From Pseudomonas poae (GTDB taxonomy: Bacteria > Pseudomonadota > Gammaproteobacteria > Pseudomonadales > Pseudomonadaceae), in contig NZ_JYLI01000017.1 of NCBI RefSeq assembly GCF_001439785.1, positions 1 through 64,000 on the forward strand: a DNA stretch of 64,000 nt, given 5' to 3'. The position numbers and the translations under genes are program-made. The notes beneath the pieces are model-generated. The model was not told the DNA's origin. It saw only the letters and a list, made by a program, of their open reading frames with translations, and did no database searches. How positions within the stretch are numbered: position 1 is the stretch's first letter; every line of letters starts with the position of its first letter. Positions 8,326-23,705 of the stretch are shown piece after piece.

Positions 8326-8404
<79 letters not shown>

Positions 8405-9371: not shown

Positions 9372-10088
9372 GGCGCTGTCCTCGGGCTCGCGGAATGCTG
9401 GCGCTGGAGCGGATCGGCGCCAGCGATGATCTGCAGATGTTATCAGTGCGCAATCGAACTACCGAGAAATCCTCGGTAGTTTCCAGCCGCCTGCTCCGGC
9501 CTGCTGTCAGGAGCCAAGGCCCCCCAAAATATTAGACAGGCCAGCAGCGCGTCGGCACGCCGTCCCCGCCGGAAGCCGCGCACCACGCACACGCCCGACT
9601 CTTCACTGGTATTTTGCCGACCTGAATCCGTCTAGGGCCTGTCTAGTATTGCCTGGCGCACTAAGCATTTTTCTGGCCCGTTATTTCACCACCCCATCGC
9701 GCCAGGATATTGATCGAGCACCCACCTTTACGGCCGCCTCTCGAATTTTAGACGAGGCTGGTGCTGGTCTAGCCAAGCGAATGCCCGCAAAGCATTGTCC
9801 TGCTTGGCTTTGAGCGTTCCCGCCGCTGGTGGCGCCAGATAAATCCGTCAAGACCTGTCTAAAATTTTGTCAAGGCTGGTCAAGGATTATGGCCGCGTTT
9901 GCCCGGTTCGACGGTGTGCCACTTGTCCCGCAAGTGACTGTCGCGGCTCGCCCCGTTTCTGGACAAGGTAGCTATCCGGACGCCTACCCGATCTGCCACC
10001 AACCCTTGCAGGCTTTGGCCCATGTGCCGAGCTGGATGAACTGCGGCCTCTCCAGCCGTCCAGAGCCTGTCCAGAATCCTAACCAGCG
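9372..10088. other. Gene-free region with repeated GTC words
   Basis: I see no convincing gene here. It holds the 10-bp inverted repeat at 9457-9481 and three members of a 24-bp repeat family (9629, 9845, 10056) made of two GTC-led hexamers 10-11 bp apart. Inverted relatives (TTAGACAGGCC near 9533 and TTTTAGACGAGG near 9747) also occur. Confidence 0.6.
9457..9481. repeat. Perfect 10-bp inverted repeat
   Basis: AACTACCGAG and CTCGGTAGTT are exact inverted copies separated by five bases. No T-run follows on either strand, so this is more likely a protein-binding dyad than a terminator. It lies upstream of the small minus-strand gene at 9171-9371. Confidence 0.6.
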
Positions 10089-10697
10089 TCACGACTGGCC
10101 CAGACTCCCGGCGACGGTCAGCTCAGCAATGCCCTGGCGAATGAATACCAGGTTCTCATCGAGCGTTTCGAGAGCGCCGCGCACGTTGTTTGCAATGTCT
10201 GCCGATCCGCGCTGTTCGACCCAGTTGGAAAGCTCCTCCACCGCTGCGCCCAGGGCGAGCTGGTTTTGGTTGAGGCGGTCGAACAGGCTGGCAATCAGTT
10301 TGGTTTCCGTCATGGTGGCTCTCCGTGTTTCGGGAGAGCGTAGCACCGGCGCCGCGAATGCCCGGAATCACCTTTATGTGGTTTGCGTCTGCCGGCGGCA
10401 AAGTGCCCTGGCGATGTGATACGGGATTTCCCCGCATCTAATGCGTGAGCCCCGCCCGCATTGGCCGATGGGCGTTCTCAGGCGGCCACGCCCGCCGAAT
10501 TCGTCTCATGCCTGTCTCACATTCGCCAGCGATTCTGTAAAGGCCAGGTAAAAGTAGGCGGGCCGAAAGCGCCGTATCCGTCTGGGGTCTGTCAGGGGTA
10601 TCAGTGACCACGGTGCGCTTGTTTGACGGGCTGGCCACGCGATAAGCCTCAGACGCCCACCCGGCGTGGTTTTGGTCTGATGCCTGTCTCGCATTCC
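9629..10697 (+). repeat. Six-copy family of 24-bp degenerate direct repeats
   Basis: Copies begin at 9629, 9845, 10056, 10501, 10578 and 10673. The pattern is CCGTCTnnn, then GCCTGTCT, then nnnATT. Within most copies the hexamer after the first GTC reappears 10-11 bp later: GTCTAG twice in the first, GTCCAG twice in the third, GTCTCA twice in the fourth. Further pairs (GTCAAG at 9869 and 9879, GTCAAA at 10698 and 10709) follow two of the copies. Confidence 0.65.
10089..10313 (-). CDS. Small hypothetical protein, 74 residues
   Basis: The ATG at 10313 has a clear GGAGAG five bases upstream. The protein starts MTETKLIASLFDRLNQNQLA and is predicted almost entirely helical, with the shape of a short two-helix hairpin (ELSNWVEQRGSADIANNVRGAL then ETLDENLVFIRQGIAEL). 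I recall similar small proteins in Pseudomonas prophages and islands but know no function. It stands alone between two repeat-rich non-coding regions. Confidence 0.65.
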   Translation of the reverse strand: MTETKLIASLFDRLNQNQLALGAAVEELSNWVEQRGSADIANNVRGALETLDENLVFIRQGIAELTVAGSLGQS

Positions 10698-11447
10698 GTC
10701 AAAGTGTGGTCAAAGTAATAGTCGGCGCCAGCGTGTTGCGATCTACACGGTGAGTTGAATTCAACACTCAATGCTGGCGTGGATCGTGCGCGCCGGCGAG
10801 TCGACCCCCGCGCCGTGGGTTTGGTCTGGGCCTAGCCAGGTTGCCAGTGGAAAACACTGAAAAAGTCTGGAAACCACAGTGGAAACCAGCACCTGGCAAC
10901 CGCTCGCTTTGGTAACTTCCCGTGGTAACCAGCGTGGTAGCCGCTGGCCGGGTTCGCACCAGGTTCGCGTAAGAGGGTGCGAACCAGAGGTGCGAACCTC
11001 AGTGCGAACCTGCTGCCGGTACGCGCCCAGAATGCGTACCAACCGTGCGTACCGATCTGCGTAATTGCTGTGCGCAATTTGCGCAGTTACTGCGCAGTCC
11101 AGAGGCCGTTGCTGAGGCTTGAGCATCTGCGGTCCGCCAGGGCATCACGCAGCCCAGTGCGTGAATATGCTGCGTGAAGGGTGCGTGAAACCTTGCTGGC
11201 GGAGGGCTTCGCGCATTGACCGGGTGCGCGACGGGCGTGCGCGAAGCACTGCGCAACATGCGCCGACCTCCACGTGACGCGAGCCTTCCATGGGGCTGTT
11301 TCGCAAACTGTGTGTTGTGGGTAATGACCTGTGTTAGGTGGTGCTGAGTGTGATCACGAAGGCTTCCCATCGGCTAAATCGGGCATCTGGCTTTCGCCGC
11401 GACTCGAGGTCTTGCGTCTGCTCAGCATCAATAGTGAGATATTCAAG
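10314..11447. other. 1.1 kb gene-free region packed with short repeated words
   Basis: No open frame here looks like a gene. The left half has three members of the GTC-pair repeat family (10501, 10578, 10673). The right half (10848-11257) is a dense array of octamers 9-16 bp apart that changes word every two to four copies. A perfect palindrome GTTGAATTCAAC lies at about 10753. The region separates the left small genes from the cargo. Confidence 0.65.
10848..11257. repeat. Word-switching octamer array
   Basis: Octamers recur about every 12-13 bp. TGGAAACC is at 10868 and 10880, TGGCAACC at 10894, TGGTAACT/TGGTAACC/TGGTAGCC at 10910, 10923 and 10935. GGTGCGAACC or AGTGCGAACC is at 10976, 10989 and 11001, with its exact inverse GGTTCGCACC at 10951. 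TGCGTACC is at 11033 and 11046, TGCGCAAT/TGCGCAGT at 11071, 11080 and 11091, TGCGTGAA at 11158, 11171 and 11182, TGCGCGAC/TGCGCGAA/TGCGCAAC at 11225, 11238 and 11250. Confidence 0.75.
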
Positions 11448-12383
11448 TTAGGTCGTTTCTTTTTTGGGAGGGCTAGTTTTTTTAACTGCCTCGAATTGTA
11501 TGTGAACTTCGTGCGGGAAGCTGATGGGCTCTTTAGAGGAGAAGTCACGCTCAATGTGTAGTTGGTGCCCGTATATTGCAATATCTTCTTCCGATCGGGT
11601 GTCGGGCATGTAAGGCAGTTCGGATTGGAGGGCTACACCAGCTTTGAAGTCCAGCCCAGTTGGGACAAGTGTCATTAGCGAAAAGCTGCCAAAGGCAATC
11701 CAGAATAGGCAGTGTGGGATCGTATTAGTATTTCGAAGATAGAGCCTGTAGACACACGATGTGTACCTTGTTCCCGGCGTAAGTGTTTCGATTACGATGG
11801 CCGGATTGATACTCATCTCCCGATTAGTAAGCGGGTTCAGCCATTCGAGAGTGGGCTTAAGGAGGGGCAGGTATCTTTCATGGGCGACTGATACAGCTAT
11901 TTTGCAGAGTGCCTTGTAGGCCATGTAGGGTACGAAGTGTTTCCTCTGCATCTCCCATGAAACGTGATTGCGATCCTCGTGATGGACGAGCGCATCGTCT
12001 ACGTTAAGCGTGATAGAAATATTATTGGTGTGGCGGTCCATCTGAAACGCGCCAATTTTCTCATCACTGTGTTTTGGCGTTTTCCTAGACTTATTCGTGA
12101 TTCCATTCAGCGCTCTGAATGGATGCGTGTACTTTTCCAAGTGTGGTTCTATTGTATTGCCGAAGTGCTTGTTACAACTGTCACACTCGGAATTGAGTAT
12201 GAGCTGGTGATTGCCGAGGAACTCAGGAATGGCATGAGCCTTATTTTTGAAAGTCACAGACTCACGGCCTAGCCCGCAGAAGCGGCAGATGAATCGCTCA
12301 CCAATGTAATGCTTATGTCCTGCACCGACTATCCCTGCCTCAATTAGTCGGAACCCGTCGAGGCTTTCGTCTTCAACATTCAT
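11448..12383 (-). CDS. HNH-nuclease-like cargo protein
   Basis: The ATG at 12383 has AGGGA eight bases upstream and gives 311 residues. The N-terminal third carries an HNH/zinc-finger pattern: CRFC at 33-36, a histidine in KAHAIPEFLG at 50, and ECDSCN with cysteines 67 and 70 followed by KHFGNTIEP. This arrangement is known from small HNH nuclease families. The remaining 220 residues are unrecognised and could bind DNA or sense a signal. The gene is noticeably AT-richer than the core genome and lies at the left end of the island's cargo. An anti-phage or anti-plasmid role is possible by position and fold, but is inference. Catalytic activity cannot be judged from sequence alone. Confidence 0.75.
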   Translation of the reverse strand: MNVEDESLDGFRLIEAGIVGAGHKHYIGERFICRFCGLGRESVTFKNKAHAIPEFLGNHQLILNSECDSCNKHFGNTIEPHLEKYTHPFRALNGITNKSRKTPKHSDEKIGAFQMDRHTNNISITLNVDDALVHHEDRNHVSWEMQRKHFVPYMAYKALCKIAVSVAHERYLPLLKPTLEWLNPLTNREMSINPAIVIETLTPGTRYTSCVYRLYLRNTNTIPHCLFWIAFGSFSLMTLVPTGLDFKAGVALQSELPYMPDTRSEEDIAIYGHQLHIERDFSSKEPISFPHEVHIQFEAVKKTSPPKKETT

Positions 12384-12754
12384 TTTGTGTCCCTGCACTG
12401 TAAGGTACTCCTCAGCCGGACACCGCCTCTCTGCGAGATTTGAGGCCACTTGCGTGGAGCGCGGCGTGTCAGTGAAGTTTTTTCGACCTGGGGCCGATGG
12501 CAAACTCGCTTCCTATTAGCAAATATCAGCTCCGTAAGAGGTTGTCCAACCCGTCACCCTGTTAACAATTATCAAGGTTGGCGGGCGCCGGACGACTCTG
12601 TGACGGAGATCCCTGTGACGAATGGTAACCGGGCAGGGTGCTTACTTTTGGTGGTTGCCGGAGTGGTTACCTATCGGCTTTGGTAGGCACTAGCCATCTA
12701 TCAACACTTGGCTGAGGGTTGATGCACGCCAGAGAAGAGAGGCTCCCAGGCCTC
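12384..12754. other. Intergenic region upstream of the HNH gene
   Basis: This 371-bp stretch must contain the promoter of the HNH gene. It also holds the left copy of a 30-bp direct repeat (12642-12671) and the base of a hairpin terminator for the next gene. I see no gene in it. Confidence 0.55.
12642..12671 (+). repeat. 30-bp direct repeat, left copy
   Basis: The sequence starts TTACTTTTGGTGGTT and ends GAGTGGTTACC. It matches 14260-14289 at 28 of 30 positions. The two copies bracket the three small genes at 12755-14240. Confidence 0.8.
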
Positions 12755-14240: not shown

Positions 14241-14259
14241 TTTCAACGTCCTTGAATGG

Positions 14260-14289
14260 TTACTTTTGGTGGTTACCAGAGTGGTTACC
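14260..14289 (+). repeat. 30-bp direct repeat, right copy
   Basis: It begins TTACTTTTGGTGGTTACC and ends AGAGTGGTTACC, differing from the copy at 12642-12671 at two positions. It lies 20 bp upstream of the first cassette gene. Inside it the word GTGGTTACC is itself repeated 12 bp apart. Confidence 0.8.
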
Positions 14290-14309
14290 AACGATCCGCG
14301 AGGTAGTGG

Positions 14310-14918: not shown

Positions 14919-15273
14919 ACCGTCACCTCGGCCTGATCGCTGGTAATCCAGTGTTCCTGTGATTTCAAAAACACCGGCAACAGCGGCAACAATGGCAACA
15001 GCCCCGCAAACCGTGGCCTCCAGATGTTGCCGATGCTGCCAAACTGTTGCCACCGGTTTTTAACCGGCAACAGTGATAACCAAATGAAGGGAAAGTGCGG
15101 GTCTCTTATGTTGAAAATGAGGTGTGCGTTGCCAGTTGTTGCCTTTTTTTTTATAGGGTGGCAACGGCTGTAAGCCACGCCCCACAAGGCCGTTGCCGGT
15201 GTTGCCACTGTTGCCAGTGATTCTAGGTTCCTGTGAACTTGGGCAATCTGGATTGCTGGTCTTTGACTGACGT
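14919..15273. other. Candidate replication origin: cluster of GTTGCC/GGCAAC words
   Basis: This gene-free stretch lies directly behind the primase-helicase gene. It contains twelve exact copies of GTTGCC or its inverse: 14976, 14985, 14994, 15026, 15046, 15066, 15128, 15138, 15160, 15192, 15201 and 15210. Two triplets have an exact 9-bp period. A T-rich run (15144-15152) lies in the middle. P4-like elements replicate from iteron-bearing sites bound by their own primase-helicase, so an origin is plausible, but this is inference. Confidence 0.55.
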
Positions 15274-17067
15274 TCATACGCCACCGCCTTCACGATCCAT
15301 GATGTCTGGGTCGATCACATAGAGGCGCGCCTGGCCACCGCCAGGGAGTCGGTAGTTTTTGGTTTTACGCTCATTGTCACGGCGTGCGAGGACGTTTGCG
15401 CCCTCCAATGCTTTGATGATGCGAGACAGGCCATATCCGTGCGCGGCCTCGATGAGCGCCGGCTTGTTGAACAGGTACAGGCGGTTGGTGCCCACCAGCT
15501 CCCAGTAACCGGCCCGGTTGAAAACTTTGGTGTCAGGCGTTTGATCGTCGACATCTGAAAAGCGGCTGCTACCGTGGCGGTCGATAAAGTCCAGGATGCC
15601 GGCCAGGATCTGACGGTCTTCGGCGTTGCCGCTGCCAACCCGGCTGAGCCATTCGCCATACAGCAAACGGCAGTCGGCGAGGGCGGTACCCGGCACCCAA
15701 GGCAGCAGGCCATACGCGATTGCCATTTCACCGGCCAGTGCGATCACCGCGAACCGATCAGCTACGCGGCCAGCTTGGGCGTTGTCTTCTACAAAGCTGG
15801 CGCGAACGCCGGCGAAGTCTTCCAGCAGGCCCGTTCGGTCGTCGCTTTCGAGCAGCTTCTCGACAAAGGCTGGCCCAAGGTGGCCATGGTGGGCGCCGAC
15901 GGCTACGGTGAGTTGTCGGTGAAAGTCCGCTCCCTCAAGCCCGTGCAATTCGTCAAAGGCCCGGTGTGTCCGGGTGCCGGCGTTCACGTCGACCATGCGC
16001 AACTCGGCGCCAGCGTGTGCGGCATTGCCGGATATGGCCGCGTGTTCAGAGAGTGAGCGCTCGCCGCTGGAGAGTGTCAGCAGGCGCCAGCTCAATTTGG
16101 CGCGGCCTTCGCGCTCGCGGGTCATGGTGCCTTTGCCCTGGCCGTTGGCGAGGGAATATGCCATTTCCTGTACGCGCTTGGGGTCGGCGCGCTTGATCTC
16201 ATCCAATGGCAGGATGGTGTCATTGCGGCTCGATGCCTCGATCTCCAGGCCGCCCTTGGTCATGTCCCAACTGGCGGCGAACACGCCCGGGTCGCCCCAT
16301 ACCGACGATCCGATCAGCTGCGCCAGTGACTTGCCGCTTGAACTGTCGCCCACCAGATGAACACCACCGCCCAGCACACCCACCAAACTCAGCAACGGGC
16401 CTGCCAGCGAGCAGCCGATCGCCAGCGTCAGTACCGGGTTGCCCGCGCACTTGGCGGCCACCTCTGATTTCCACAGCGCCAGCTCGCCACGCCGGCTGAA
16501 AAGTACCTGAGCCTTGTTGCTGGCCTGGTACCGCACATTGGCGCTGCCGATGGTTCGCCCAGGCAGCACGAACGCGCCCGACTCATGCCAGCCCGGCCGG
16601 CTGGTGGTGGCAAACACTTCTGCAGGATGCTGGTCGAGCAGGTACTCCATGAACGTGCCGCGTTTCTTGAGGGCGATAATGACGCCCATCCCGAACAAGG
16701 CGCGCCTGGCGTCTTCGCCACTGCCGCCGAACACCTCCATGGCGATGATCCATTCCTTGATGCCGCCCTCGGTGACCAGGCGCAGCAATCGCCCTTCGCT
16801 GTCATCGTCGCTGTTGGTGGTGCGGGCTACGACGGTGACGGGGCTGGAGATCCACTCATCAGTGATAGGCCGGTCGCCGGTATCGCCTTCGGCGTCGTCC
16901 TGGTCAGCGCTGGCGCGCTTGAAGCTATGCCAGTAAACGCCCGGGCGCAGCTTGCGGCCCTTCTCATTGACTACCCAATGCTCATACACCGCCCAGCAGG
17001 GGCGATCTGGCGCAATGGTCGCGGCGTCCGGCCGAAGGTTGATCACGTTGGTGTCAGGCTTGGACAT
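15274..17067 (-). CDS. DUF927-type primase-helicase (replication protein of the element)
   Basis: This 597-residue protein is the likely replicative helicase of the island. The ATG at 17067 overlaps the Toprim gene by 14 bases and follows GGAAAC. Residues 1-190 include the DUF927 entry region (WAVYEHWVVNEKGRKLRPGV). The ATPase core has a Walker A-like loop in HLVGDSSSGKSLAQLIGSS and an acidic Walker B in DTILPLDEIKRADPK. The C-terminal 90 residues (VFNRAGYWELVGTNRLYLFN onward) look like a winged helix, which in related proteins binds DNA. The protein is paired with a separate Toprim primase just upstream, splitting the functions that phage P4 alpha joins in one chain. The GTTGCC cluster follows immediately. 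Confidence 0.88.
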   Translation of the reverse strand: MSKPDTNVINLRPDAATIAPDRPCWAVYEHWVVNEKGRKLRPGVYWHSFKRASADQDDAEGDTGDRPITDEWISSPVTVVARTTNSDDDSEGRLLRLVTEGGIKEWIIAMEVFGGSGEDARRALFGMGVIIALKKRGTFMEYLLDQHPAEVFATTSRPGWHESGAFVLPGRTIGSANVRYQASNKAQVLFSRRGELALWKSEVAAKCAGNPVLTLAIGCSLAGPLLSLVGVLGGGVHLVGDSSSGKSLAQLIGSSVWGDPGVFAASWDMTKGGLEIEASSRNDTILPLDEIKRADPKRVQEMAYSLANGQGKGTMTREREGRAKLSWRLLTLSSGERSLSEHAAISGNAAHAGAELRMVDVNAGTRTHRAFDELHGLEGADFHRQLTVAVGAHHGHLGPAFVEKLLESDDRTGLLEDFAGVRASFVEDNAQAGRVADRFAVIALAGEMAIAYGLLPWVPGTALADCRLLYGEWLSRVGSGNAEDRQILAGILDFIDRHGSSRFSDVDDQTPDTKVFNRAGYWELVGTNRLYLFNKPALIEAAHGYGLSRIIKALEGANVLARRDNERKTKNYRLPGGGQARLYVIDPDIMDREGGGV

Positions 17068-17935
17068 GGGCGAGTTTCCAGTTGGCGAGGTCGTTGAAGT
17101 CGGTGAGGTCATCGGGGGCGCCTTCCGGCCATTCAGGGAAAGCCACTTGGCCACCCACGGCCGCCGCCGCTGCGTTTGCCGCTGCTCGCCCCGGGTTGCC
17201 ATCGGTGAGCCGGTCGTCGTCGCCGGCAATGACGATTGGCTGGCCCGGGTAGCGAGCGCGAAGTGCCATCGCCGCCGGGATCAAGTTGCCCGCGTTCATG
17301 GCAGCGGCAACGACATAGCCGCCGTGCTGGTGGAGGCTGGCGGCCGTCGCCCACCCTTCGCAGATGCAAAGCACAGAACCTGGCTCGATGATGCCCAGCG
17401 GCGAATAGGTGCCCTTGATCCGGCCGCCGAACAGGAAGCGCTTGTCACCGTCCGGCCCGATCCTTTGCAGGTTGACCAAGCGGCCATCCAGGTACAGCGG
17501 GATCAGCAGGTCAGCGCCACGCTGGCGCAGGCCGTAGGAGCGAACCGCCTTGGCAACCAAATACGGGTGGTCGGGCGCGGCCCGGCGTGCATTGCGCCAC
17601 CATTGATTAGCCTTCTCGGCGGCCTGCTGCTGGCGCCGGTTTTGCTCGGCTTCGCGCTGACGCCGGGCCTGGTCGACTCGCTCGCGGATTTGAGCCGCTT
17701 CGCGGGCGTCCACTGGCTCGCGACTACACCACGTGCTGGTGCCACCGGTTTTCCAACTGCCGAAAGCGCCGGACGCGATACCGTCAGTAAACAGTGTGTA
17801 CCAGCCATTGAAGGAGCCAGCCTTGTCGCCTGGAACGTGAAACCGGTGAATGGTGCCGTCGGCCAAGGGGAGCCACTCGAGAGGGCCATAGACGGCCTGG
17901 AGCGCATCACGGAATAGGATCGTTGCGTCAGTCAT
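17054..17935 (-). CDS. Toprim-domain primase
   Basis: This 293-residue protein probably makes primers for replication of the element. The C-terminal half is a Toprim domain: glycine/glutamate motif VLCICEGWATAASLH near 190, MNAGNLIPAAMALRARYPG, and the acidic motif IVIAGDDD near 245 that binds metal. A long basic, glutamine-rich helix (RERVDQARRQREAEQNRRQQ) at about 83-105 joins it to an N-terminal domain with WYTLFTDGIASGAFGSW, a pattern common in P4-like and plasmid primases. No zinc-finger cysteines are seen. The start ATGA overlaps the stop of the 75-residue gene upstream, and the 3' end overlaps the helicase gene, so the two are translated together. Confidence 0.88.
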   Translation of the reverse strand: MTDATILFRDALQAVYGPLEWLPLADGTIHRFHVPGDKAGSFNGWYTLFTDGIASGAFGSWKTGGTSTWCSREPVDAREAAQIRERVDQARRQREAEQNRRQQQAAEKANQWWRNARRAAPDHPYLVAKAVRSYGLRQRGADLLIPLYLDGRLVNLQRIGPDGDKRFLFGGRIKGTYSPLGIIEPGSVLCICEGWATAASLHQHGGYVVAAAMNAGNLIPAAMALRARYPGQPIVIAGDDDRLTDGNPGRAAANAAAAAVGGQVAFPEWPEGAPDDLTDFNDLANWKLAHVQA

Positions 17936-19315: not shown

Positions 19316-19791
19316 TGCGTCCTCCCGGCCGACTCCAGGGAACGGGCAATGGTCATGTGGTGCGAATAACGCTTGAGGCGGGTTGCGAGGCTGGAGTTTG
19401 CGCGGAGGGCGCTCAGTGCCATGCGGCGGTGAGCAAATGCGCGAATCGCGAACGGATTTAGGGCGTGTTTCATGGGTGTAGCTCCCGAATCATGGGAACC
19501 ACCACGGCCTGCCGCCAAGCAGAGAAGGGTGGCGAGTTGCACAGGATTGGCGGACCGGTGATTCAGGAACCCGGCGCACCCGAGGGTGCTCCTGCACAAC
19601 CCGCCATAAAACGAGAATGCGGACACAAAAAAAGCGCCTGCAATCGTAATGGGGGCGCTGTTGCGCCTGAAATCATTCGACCCGCCAAGGTCGTTGTCAG
19701 CAATGTGACGGGAAGAACCATACCGGCGGGCGTGATTGCTTGCAACAAAAGTTATCGACCGTTTATCGCTGATCATGAGCATAGCTGTCAT
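19312..19791 (-). CDS. Ash/Icd-like ORF of P4-type elements, 159 residues
   Basis: The ATG at 19791 overlaps the stop of the Rha-like gene (ATGA) and the stop overlaps the next ATG in the same way, which favours the full 159-residue reading. A second possible start, ATG at 19473 with GGGAG upstream, would give only 53 residues. The middle part (AGAFFVSAFSFYGGLCRSTL, NHRSANPVQLATLLCL) resembles the Ash/Icd-like proteins found next to immunity functions in P4-like satellites. A terminator-like hairpin lies inside this frame (19633-19659). In P4 the equivalent leader makes a regulatory RNA, so the conserved function here may be RNA as well as protein. That link is inference. Confidence 0.55.
   Translation of the reverse strand: MTAMLMISDKRSITFVASNHARRYGSSRHIADNDLGGSNDFRRNSAPITIAGAFFVSAFSFYGGLCRSTLGCAGFLNHRSANPVQLATLLCLAAGRGGSHDSGATPMKHALNPFAIRAFAHRRMALSALRANSSLATRLKRYSHHMTIARSLESAGRTQ
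19627..19659 (-). terminator. Intrinsic-terminator-like hairpin inside the Ash/Icd-like ORF (possible attenuator)
   Basis: On the minus strand AGCGCC and GGCGCT form a six-pair stem around 15 bases, followed directly by seven T residues. It lies between the Rha-like gene and the rest of the operon, where early termination would switch off the replication genes. Confidence 0.55.
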
Positions 19792-20774: not shown

Positions 20775-20993
20775 TTAAGCCTCCTGACTGAGCAGGAAGG
20801 ATTCCACAGACTCAGGCTCCCAGCGGACTGAACGACCAAAACGGATCGGTTCAGGGAAGCCTGGAGTTTTAGACCAGCGCCACCAAGTGGAACGGCTGAC
20901 CTGATAGCGGGCACAGAGCTGAGCTGCGGTTGCGCGAGTGCCAGGGATCGGCAGGTTGGGTACATCAGTGATGCGGGCGACATTTGATGTCAT
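20775..20993 (-). CDS. AlpA-family excisionase/regulator
   Basis: This 72-residue protein has the MerR-like helix-turn-helix of AlpA proteins: TRATAAQLCARYQVSRSTWW, RWSKTPGFPEPIRFGRSVRW and EPESVESFL. AlpA proteins activate the integrase gene and promote excision of CP4-57-like islands, and P4 Vis also represses the operon. ATG at 20993 follows GAGAAA; the longer frame reaching 21080 has no ribosome site. It lies between the operon and a 1.06 kb regulatory region that ends at the integrase gene. Confidence 0.85.
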   Translation of the reverse strand: MTSNVARITDVPNLPIPGTRATAAQLCARYQVSRSTWWRWSKTPGFPEPIRFGRSVRWEPESVESFLLSQEA

Positions 20994-21153
20994 TGGTGAT
21001 TTCTCAATAAACCGAATTGAAAAACCGAGAGGATCGTCCTGTAGACCACCCGTACCTGTGAACAGGTCAAAAGGTGGCAAGTCATCGGAAAGAGCACCAC
21101 TGCATAAAAAACCAGTAGCGCATTATTCCCTCCGGTACTACAGTCCGCCCGAG

Positions 21154-22052: not shown

Positions 22053-23498
22053 TCACGACATTGCATCGGGGTTTTTCTTTTTCCGGCGCGAGATGGAAAG
22101 CACGTTGCCCATATCAGTGACCTCCCCCAAAGCCTTAGCCAAAGCTCGGTCAAAGAGCTCGATAGCTTTACGTTTCTCTGGCAGCGCCGCTTCGGGATTG
22201 TTTCGGTAGTGCCGAGAAACGACACCTGTCTGGCCATGAGCCTGAAGGAGATCTGACAAACGATCATCAACACCGTGCTTCTGCATCAGCTGTGTGCAGG
22301 TCCGGCGCAGGTCTCTCGGGGAGAACGTCGGGATCTTCGCACCAGCGATTAACGCGTGCTTGGAATCCAGCCAATCTGCAACGGCATGGGTCGGACTACT
22401 GATCACAAAGGGCTGTTTACCGTGTGTAGTCCAGGGCCATGGATGATCACCATTGATTTCCCGTACTTGCCGCATTATGGCAATGGCTCGATCGGAGAGC
22501 GGTACCAAATGCGGCCGGCTCATGGTCTGACCACCTCGCCCCTTGCGGTGAATTAATAGCACCGTGCCCGCGTCTAGATCGTAGTCCCCCCAAGTGGTTT
22601 CGATCAGGTTCTTGATCCGCTGACCGCCAGTTGATATGACAAACTTGAATAGCAGCGCCATTACCGGACCAATTCCGTCTGTACTCTGAACCGTCTCCCA
22701 GAATTGCTTAAGCTCAGCATCAGACAGGGCTCGTTCGACAGGGGCCGAGACTTTATCGACCTTCACCATTGCTGCAGGGTTGATCTCAAGGCTATAGGTC
22801 TTCGCATTGGAGCGACCAACCACACTCTCAGCCGTGAGCCCATGGTTGAATGCCGCCACCAGAAACGAACGCATACGATCCGCCTGCACTTTGGAGCCGC
22901 GCTCCCAGATCGGGTTGAGAATGGTGAGGATGTGGTCAGCCCTAATATCTCGGGCCTTCATCCGCATTACCTCAGGGTGGGGCTCTTGCATGTTCGTCTT
23001 GAGCAGCCGTTCCAACTCCTTCACGACGCCAGGTGTCGCCTTCACGCGGCGCGACTCAATGTAATCCAAGAACAAATCGTGAAAGCTTCCGCGGGCCGCT
23101 TCAATTTCGGCGAGGCGGAAACGTTCTAGCCGTTCCGCTTCTTCCAATGCGGCTGTGGCTGCACGACTAGCCGCGGCCGCTACTTGTTGCACCGAGATGT
23201 GCTCCAAGTACTTGGCAATACCGCCAGCGGCAGCCGCCTCAACTGAAATTCGCAAAGCCTCACCCCGGATACCATCCAAGCTCTGCTCGTCTGTACCCAC
23301 GCGCGGCTTCTTCGCAAGCGTCCCGAGAGGCAGACGCTTGTCGCTGTCAGATGTGCGTTCCCGATAGTAGGCCTGAATAGCTCCGGAAGCTTTACGTTCG
23401 AGCAGCAAAGTCCCCTTTCCGCGAGAGCCGACCGGCTCCGACTGACGAGTCTTTACCGCATAGGCTTCCATCTCGGTCATTCGAGTACGCTTAGCCAT
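22053..23498 (-). CDS. int: Tyrosine-recombinase integrase of the element
   Basis: This 481-residue integrase inserts the element into, and excises it from, the tRNA-Thr gene. ATG at 23498 has GGGGAA five bases upstream; the longer frame to 23612 is less likely. The N-terminal part carries an arm-binding region (to about 135, including a helical stretch) and a core-binding domain (about 137-240). The catalytic domain shows R294 in GGQRIKNLIE, the RDLRR box at 395-399, H421 in AHGQT and the likely nucleophile Y431 in SRHYRNN. The usual first histidine of the HxxR box is arginine (R395), a variant also seen in other island integrases. The gene reads inward from attR, 160 bp from it. Confidence 0.95.
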   Translation of the reverse strand: MAKRTRMTEMEAYAVKTRQSEPVGSRGKGTLLLERKASGAIQAYYRERTSDSDKRLPLGTLAKKPRVGTDEQSLDGIRGEALRISVEAAAAGGIAKYLEHISVQQVAAAASRAATAALEEAERLERFRLAEIEAARGSFHDLFLDYIESRRVKATPGVVKELERLLKTNMQEPHPEVMRMKARDIRADHILTILNPIWERGSKVQADRMRSFLVAAFNHGLTAESVVGRSNAKTYSLEINPAAMVKVDKVSAPVERALSDAELKQFWETVQSTDGIGPVMALLFKFVISTGGQRIKNLIETTWGDYDLDAGTVLLIHRKGRGGQTMSRPHLVPLSDRAIAIMRQVREINGDHPWPWTTHGKQPFVISSPTHAVADWLDSKHALIAGAKIPTFSPRDLRRTCTQLMQKHGVDDRLSDLLQAHGQTGVVSRHYRNNPEAALPEKRKAIELFDRALAKALGEVTDMGNVLSISRRKKKNPDAMS

Positions 23499-23501
23499 TC
23501 T

Positions 23502-23533
23502 TTCCCCGTTTTCCCCATCCGTTCCCCGTTTCT
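23502..23533. repeat. TTCCCCGTT words, possible integrase arm sites (right)
   Basis: TTCCCCGTT occurs at 23502-23510 and 23522-23530 with the related TTCCCCATC between. The 13-mer GTTCCCCGTTTCT at 23521-23533 is identical to 8481-8493 near the left end. The first copy overlaps the ribosome site of the integrase gene, so binding here could also repress it. Confidence 0.5.
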
Positions 23534-23658
23534 CATGCAAAGGTACGCTAACAGGTGAAACATAGAAAGACACCGAATTGGCTACAGACCAAGTAAAACC
23601 TAGACCAAGCAAAACAAGTGATACTCGATGAAGCGGGGCGAAGCCTCAGAGCAAACGG

Positions 23659-23705
23659 CTTGTAATCAGTAGTTCCCGGGTTCGACTCCTGGTGCCGCAC
23701 CATAT
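23659..23705. other. attR: displaced and decayed 3' end of tRNA-Thr
   Basis: This 47-base copy of the tRNA 3' end differs from attL by one substitution in the variable arm and one missing G in the acceptor arm (GCCGCACC in place of GCCGGCACC). It has no 5' half, so it is not a tRNA gene. As the displaced original end it is free to mutate. Confidence 0.9.

Follow-up and report, generated by a model that had tools for sequence, protein, structure and literature searches.

The window analysed here (the whole 64-kb stretch of DNA) contains, within a P4-like satellite, an array of short repeated words that is very probably a set of pac sites matching many different headful phages; TerS binding of the modules and their use in packaging are what we infer from sequence comparisons. 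Each module would imitate the cis site recognised by the terminase small subunit (TerS) of one phage, typically an 8-bp word in three direct copies and one inverted copy. With a matching helper active, the TerS of that helper would attach to the corresponding module on multimeric satellite DNA and recruit TerL, leading to headful filling of helper capsids with satellite DNA. Copies of the packaging sites of at least 12 phages would be carried in this way, and whichever phage is active would pack satellite DNA. We consider it likely that the array represents an undescribed class of part, a 'key ring' of pac sites for three unrelated terminase families and more than 15 specificities.

The host island

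The 15.3-kb island around the array is a P4-like satellite, with the following features:

8357 to 8395, plus strand: attL, within tRNA-Thr (8326-8401)
14970 to 15218, unstranded: iteron cluster of GGCAACA / GTTGCC repeats, likely replication origin, outside the packaging array
15274 to 17229, minus strand: DUF927 replication protein, P4-alpha-like part
17054 to 17935, minus strand: Toprim primase
19525 to 19611, minus strand: C4 antisense RNA, P4-type immunity (RF01695)
20775 to 21080, minus strand: AlpA/excisionase-like HTH protein
22053 to 23612, minus strand: integrase
23659 to 23697, plus strand: attR, exact 24-bp repeat of the tRNA-Thr 3' end

The edges of the island were defined by the 24-bp repeat of the tRNA-Thr 3' end (copies starting at 8372 and 23674). 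The C4 RNA scored 86.1 bits (RF01695 gathering score 45), and the AlpA-like protein matched HTH_17/AlpA under the Pfam cut-off as well as PHROG_66 (excisionase/regulator). The alpha-type primase/helicase is split, DUF927 and Toprim being two proteins and not one, and Rha is also encoded. The island thus has the integrase with a tRNA att repeat, the C4 RNA, and the alpha-type primase/helicase with an AlpA regulator by which P4-like membership was judged, and it resembles other P4-like satellites in its tRNA-targeted integrase, AlpA, C4 immunity RNA and primase/helicase. P4 relies on a cos site that it has in common with P2, whereas this island carries numerous pac-like sites in an array and no recognised capsid-size or late-control gene (sid, psu, delta) among the ten island proteins scanned. 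The same ten proteins included no recognisable terminase or capsid protein, and Rpp was not named among those scanned.

An HNH_5 protein, possibly a cargo gene, adjoins the array (11448-12503). Outside the island, tandem 306-bp repeats (5.7 copies) occupy positions 1-1732 of the window and are possibly a fragment of a large adhesin gene.

Structure and extent of the array

The initial annotation described octamers recurring at 9-16 bp, mostly 12-13 bp, over 10848-11257, with a word constant only among neighbouring copies. The autocorrelation analysis that it proposed gave a signal far above dinucleotide shuffles: 24 exact 7-mer pairs were seen at lags of 9-16 (0.37 expected; maximum of 6 over 1000 shuffles), and the array was therefore accepted as non-random. 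For 6-mers the count was 37 pairs (1.34 expected), more than in any other 410-bp stretch of the window. The words, and the way each stays constant only locally, were as claimed. The lags concentrate at 11-13, and the structure is tighter than described: modules consist of two or three word copies, mostly triplets spaced 13+12 bp (starts 10910/10923/10935, 10978/10991/11003, 11033/11046/11058 and 11225/11238/11250), of which the third copy is often degenerate. Several satellite modules have an inverted word copy about 13-17 bp upstream; the inverted copy reported at 10951 is present, and a second was found at 10962.

The interval 10848-11257 is only part of the array, which spans 9.63-11.26 kb, with GTC-type doublets at 9630-9646, 9847-9885, 10058-10075, 10503-10519 and 10698-10715, and includes a separate module at 14.26 kb (TGGTTACC x3, 14257-14289). 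At least 13 different modules were counted in this one island. Integrase arm sites were rejected as an identity for the array, which lies more than 2 kb from att.

The same words inside terS genes

Viral contigs were scanned for pairs of TGGAAACC or TGCGAACC, and only the genomic context was used, among the matches listed. These included phages with word triplets within one ORF, whose PHROG name was terminase small subunit. PHROG_1206 terS genes were then collected by family from 300 Pseudomonas genomes, together with relatives in viral contigs. Nearly every one carries a triplet at the same gene position (approximately nt 160-215) and the word varies: TGGAAACC, TGGCAACC, TGGTAACC, TGGATACC, TGGTCACC, TGGTTACC, TGCGAACC, TGCGTACC, TGCGTGAA, TGCGCGAA, TGTTACA and TGTTAACC were found, the majority of them being satellite words. 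The grammar is three direct copies 12-15 bp apart, often preceded, some 16 bp upstream, by an inverted one.

An in-gene repeat was present in 35 of the 39 Pseudomonas PHROG_1206 terS. The word belonged to the satellite set in 32/39 and to the array of this window in 24/39; direct reading added to the 32 three terS that had been wrongly parsed, and four of the 39 had no word known from the satellites under study. Other repeats in these loci matched satellite words in 3/215 (Fisher 6e-15). The TerS family was first found via two array words, which are therefore not independent; with both seed words excluded, 14/21 terS matched, and three of the seven misses were visible parsing failures. Named isolates agreed (Cruim01, HK639, USP_18, PS-1, EhrS_49 and SEN34). 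A further pattern, TGCGCGA(N4-7)TGCGCGA, gave matches scattered genome-wide in 60 genomes and was uninformative.

Phages and satellites also share layout. The inverted copy lies upstream in 65/95 phage sites and downstream in 0/95, and in satellite modules, when present, it is always upstream. Word-specific spacing is similar in both, e.g. 13+12 for TGGTTAC and TGCGCGA. The modules outside the second class (described below), with the terS carrying their words where one was found, were as follows:

10848 to 10901, plus strand: TGGAAACC (10848 degenerate, 10868, 10880) and TGGCAACC (10894); terS words of PHROG_1206 phages with helix SHTAIN / SHTAIQ, isolate Cruim01 included
10910 to 10942, plus strand: TGGTAAC(T/C), TGGTAGCC, 13+12-bp triplet; terS word of L435, L448 and L453
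10951 to 10968, minus strand: inverted pair GGTTCGC, facing the TGCGAACC triplet
10976 to 11010, plus strand: TGCGAACC x3, 13+12 bp; the word (GCGAACC) is also in terS of the strain's own prophage (L370 = G000:C15:62286-62870)
11018 to 11065, plus strand: TGCGTACC x2 and TGCGTAAT, inverted GGTACGC at 11018; terS word of L360, L374, L375 and isolates HK639, EhrS_49 and SEN34
11071 to 11098, plus strand: TGCGCAAT/TGCGCAGT x3 (TGCGCA word), kept in sister islands; no matching terS found among those collected
11145 to 11189, plus strand: TGCGTGAA x3 (11158, 11171, 11182), inverted TCACGCA upstream; terS word of L379 and L891
11208 to 11257, plus strand: TGCGCGA(C/A) x2 and TGCGCAAC, inverted TTCGCGCA at 11208; counterpart is terS word TGCGCGAAA of L888 and L889, likewise 13+12
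14257 to 14292, plus strand: separate module TGGTTAC(T/C) x3, 13+12 bp; terS word of L893

Nearly all array words thus occur in or beside phage terS, as expected of pac sites. The pac of P22 lies within its terS gene and the pac of SPP1 contains direct repeats; such sites of headful phages have one specificity per phage, whereas this element has at least 13 modules for two or more TerS families.

Two further observations concern other phage loci. Facing GGTTTCCA and TGGAAACC pairs occur in other phages (L112, L166 and L184), and the pair in L184 directly precedes a ParB-like/DNA methyltransferase gene. A further terS-like group (L861, L863 and L866) has TTTAACATC repeats with a 12-bp period, a pac-like word that was not noticed in satellites.

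Agreement between the TerS recognition helix and the word

Among all TerS columns, residue 36 had the most mutual information with the word. In permutation tests that ignore the phylogeny of the 32 TerS representatives, residue 36 (N/Q/R/other) agreed with word base 4 (A/C/G/T) in 30/32 lineages, against a permutation maximum of 21. Residue 32 (D/E or H) agreed with base 3 (C or G) in 31/32 representatives, and residue 33 (T/V, G/A or N/S) with base 5 (A, T or C), also in 31/32. A count starting just before the DW motif labels residues 36, 32 and 33 as 32, 28 and 29. Residues 32 and 36 lie within a predicted helix (32-42) of an HTH (AlphaFold2, pLDDT 82-89 there). The word repeats encode TerS residues near 60-72; the helix is encoded elsewhere in the gene, and its agreement with the word is therefore informative.

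The pairings resemble classical contacts between residues and bases. Jointly with the 'key ring' reading, and at the same strength, it is likely that TerS proteins choose their genome by a simple amino-acid-to-base code, with the word predictable from three residues. The ladder of words that change by one letter at a time would reflect TerS of one family that differ singly in recognition-helix residues. No clear sequence relative of PHROG_1206 TerS was found in the PDB. A 2022 review called TerS-DNA recognition still 'unclear and controversial' (PMC9611059), and TerS-pac binding in vitro was weak or non-specific for SPP1/SF6 and P22 (PMC4737164, PMC9611059).

The initial annotation had suggested binding sites for several related proteins and named the element's own AlpA, HTH, Rha and primase proteins for binding assays. 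The first part is the best reading; the proteins are most likely helper-phage TerS and not AlpA, Rha or the primase. Doublets near one helical turn are typical regulator sites, and the doublet spacing here would fit operators for several element regulators (AlpA, Rha, another HTH). Such operators are nevertheless extremely improbable given that the same words occur in terS of unrelated phages and covary with the TerS helix, and that one island holds at least 13 different modules.

Second and third word classes

The second class consists of GTCNNNN pairs, which also occur just upstream of PHROG_546 genes. Its modules in the window were:

9628 to 9650, plus strand: CCGTCTAGGGCCTGTCTAGTATT; CCGTCTAGGGCCTGTCTAGAAT upstream of PHROG_546 in L478 and L483
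9845 to 9888, plus strand: GTCAAG/GTCTAA and GTCAAGG x2; cf. L468
10056 to 10077, plus strand: CCGTCCAGAGCCTGTCCAGAAT; identical 22-mer upstream of PHROG_546 in L484, L485, L489 and L490
10503 to 10524, plus strand: GTCTCATGCCTGTCTCACATTC, with a decayed copy at 10672-10696; GTCTCATGCCTGTCTCACAT upstream of PHROG_546 in L467, L474 and L486
10696 to 10716, plus strand: CCGTCAAAGTGTGGTCAAAGT; cf. L472

Doublets upstream of PHROG_546 matched satellite words in 16/31 cases, against 21/1514 background windows. Thirty Pseudomonas PHROG_546 prophages have doublets at the same place, with words that vary and are sometimes imperfect; a GTCTCA doublet occurs in L467, L473, L474 and L486. PHROG_546, which has no assigned function and lies directly upstream of terL, is inferred to be a candidate small terminase. 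At L461:28369-28845 and in L462-L491, the upstream doublet differs from phage to phage, as a pac word does. Separately, a small PHROG_12397 gene (function not assigned; 10089-10316, minus strand) lies amid the class-2 modules.

A third class was found in sister islands, where AACCTGACA and TGTTGACA (GTTGACA) pairs correspond to pairs inside Terminase_2 terS genes. These words lie on the terS coding strand, whereas those of the other two classes lie on the antisense strand, a difference that counts against the pac-site reading.

The array in a satellite with a known helper

The same array is present in the genome of phiAH14b (73.6% identity, 86% query coverage). This satellite is packaged headful in phiAH14a capsids, as about trimers (Dziewit & Radlinska 2016, PMC4936722), at a molar ratio to its helper of about 3:1 (PMC4936722). 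The candidate terS of phiAH14a is a PHROG_546 gene next to terL, with CCGTCTAGAGCCTGTCAAGAAT just upstream. The phiAH14b module CCGTCCAGAGCCTGTCCAGAAT matches CCGTCTAGAGCCTGTCAAGAAT at 20/22, and the phiAH14a site is identical to no phiAH14b module. A text search of PMC4936722 found neither mention of a pac site nor a description of the array. The pair thus offers the same satellite type, the same array and headful packaging in helper capsids, but differs in that its array was undescribed there and its helper TerS is a candidate.

The main rival reading is a TerS decoy array, in which the modules would titrate the TerS of many phages, lower the packaging of helpers or competitors and protect the host or the satellite. 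Word identity, conservation and covariation fit it equally well, and many specificities side by side suit a decoy. Titration, however, needs neither the near-uniform orientation of satellite modules (103 vs 1, a count in which eight 'T-' entries are TGGTTACC read from the opposite strand) nor preserved spacing with an upstream inverted copy; moreover, the array-bearing phiAH14b is itself packaged, at the molar ratio of about 3:1 to its helper, and no other packaging gene was found among the island proteins scanned. We therefore regard a decoy as unlikely, although decoy and pac roles can coexist.

Conservation among sister islands

The grammar, which the initial annotation proposed to seek in other Pseudomonas islands, was found in about 20 of them, with the same words in the same order and whole modules present or absent. 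In aligned arrays of six islands, word bases were 88-95% identical to the window and spacers 51-82%, and the L085 island shares array words though its DUF927 protein is only about 40% identical. Tandem-repeat expansion was rejected on the finding that words are conserved while spacers drift. A trace of local copying, another earlier proposal, would leave unexplained both this conservation and the presence of the words in phage terS loci.

In phages the words lie inside terS, and the array could accordingly be composed of leftover pieces of captured terS genes that no longer serve any function. This is very unlikely and was rejected: the array has no TerS coding similarity (best tblastn E 0.045), its words are more conserved than its spacers, and their order persists between islands whose replication proteins share only 40% identity.

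An initiator region had also been proposed. P4 has iterons in ori and crr, and the element encodes alpha-like replication proteins, so that a replication initiator or copy-control region bound by its primase was considered. The origin-like iterons lie in a separate cluster just downstream of DUF927, and their word differs by island (GTTGCC, GTTCCCA, GTTCCCC or GTCCCCT) in a constant layout. The array is not an initiator region, because these separate iterons change word from island to island and the array words do not change with them; no array word is that of the element's own origin iterons, and array words match phage terS and not replication genes. This alternative has next to no probability. 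Plasmid iterons were rejected, as no plasmid match was found. Independently of the array, sister satellites appear to have switched origin specificity (14970-15218 and counterparts).

Some islands have cargo-sized insertions between modules (array regions of L058, L063 and L057), and the array may therefore also serve as a hotspot for insertions. Modules resembling those of the array lie close to AsmA or MurJ genes (L103:7700-7900 and L107:7640-7930); these, in genomes with no close DUF927 match, may be remnants or belong to other element types. In an AT-rich contig (L645:4650-5010), doublets of TGGATACC, AACCTGACA, CTGCGTAC and TGGCAACC share a non-coding region close to genes for Abi_2 and a tape-measure protein. 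The contig is possibly from another genus, and a packaging array may exist outside Pseudomonas; this similar word mixture suggests that the strategy could be general.

Comparison with other packaging systems and significance

PICIs redirect the helper terminase by means of Rpp or a TerS of their own (Feiss 2022, PMC9026076; SeCI, PMC12597102). They resemble this island as satellites that turn a helper terminase to their own DNA, but supply a specificity-changing protein, whereas only cis sites, for many helper TerS types, were found here. Lambda cosB likewise has several R repeats, one of them inverted, bound by a TerS HTH; it differs in belonging to a cos system with cosN and one specificity. 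A literature search with preprints and most subscription papers outside its reach turned up no account of a packaging array with multiple specificities.

The usual picture of a satellite is one of dependence on a few helpers, mediated either by a single packaging signal or by a protein that redirects terminase. If the pac-site reading is true, a satellite with at least 13 packaging signals could be transferred by many phages unrelated to one another, and this would bear on the spread of islands and their cargo. The array may also record the phage terminase types that a lineage has met.
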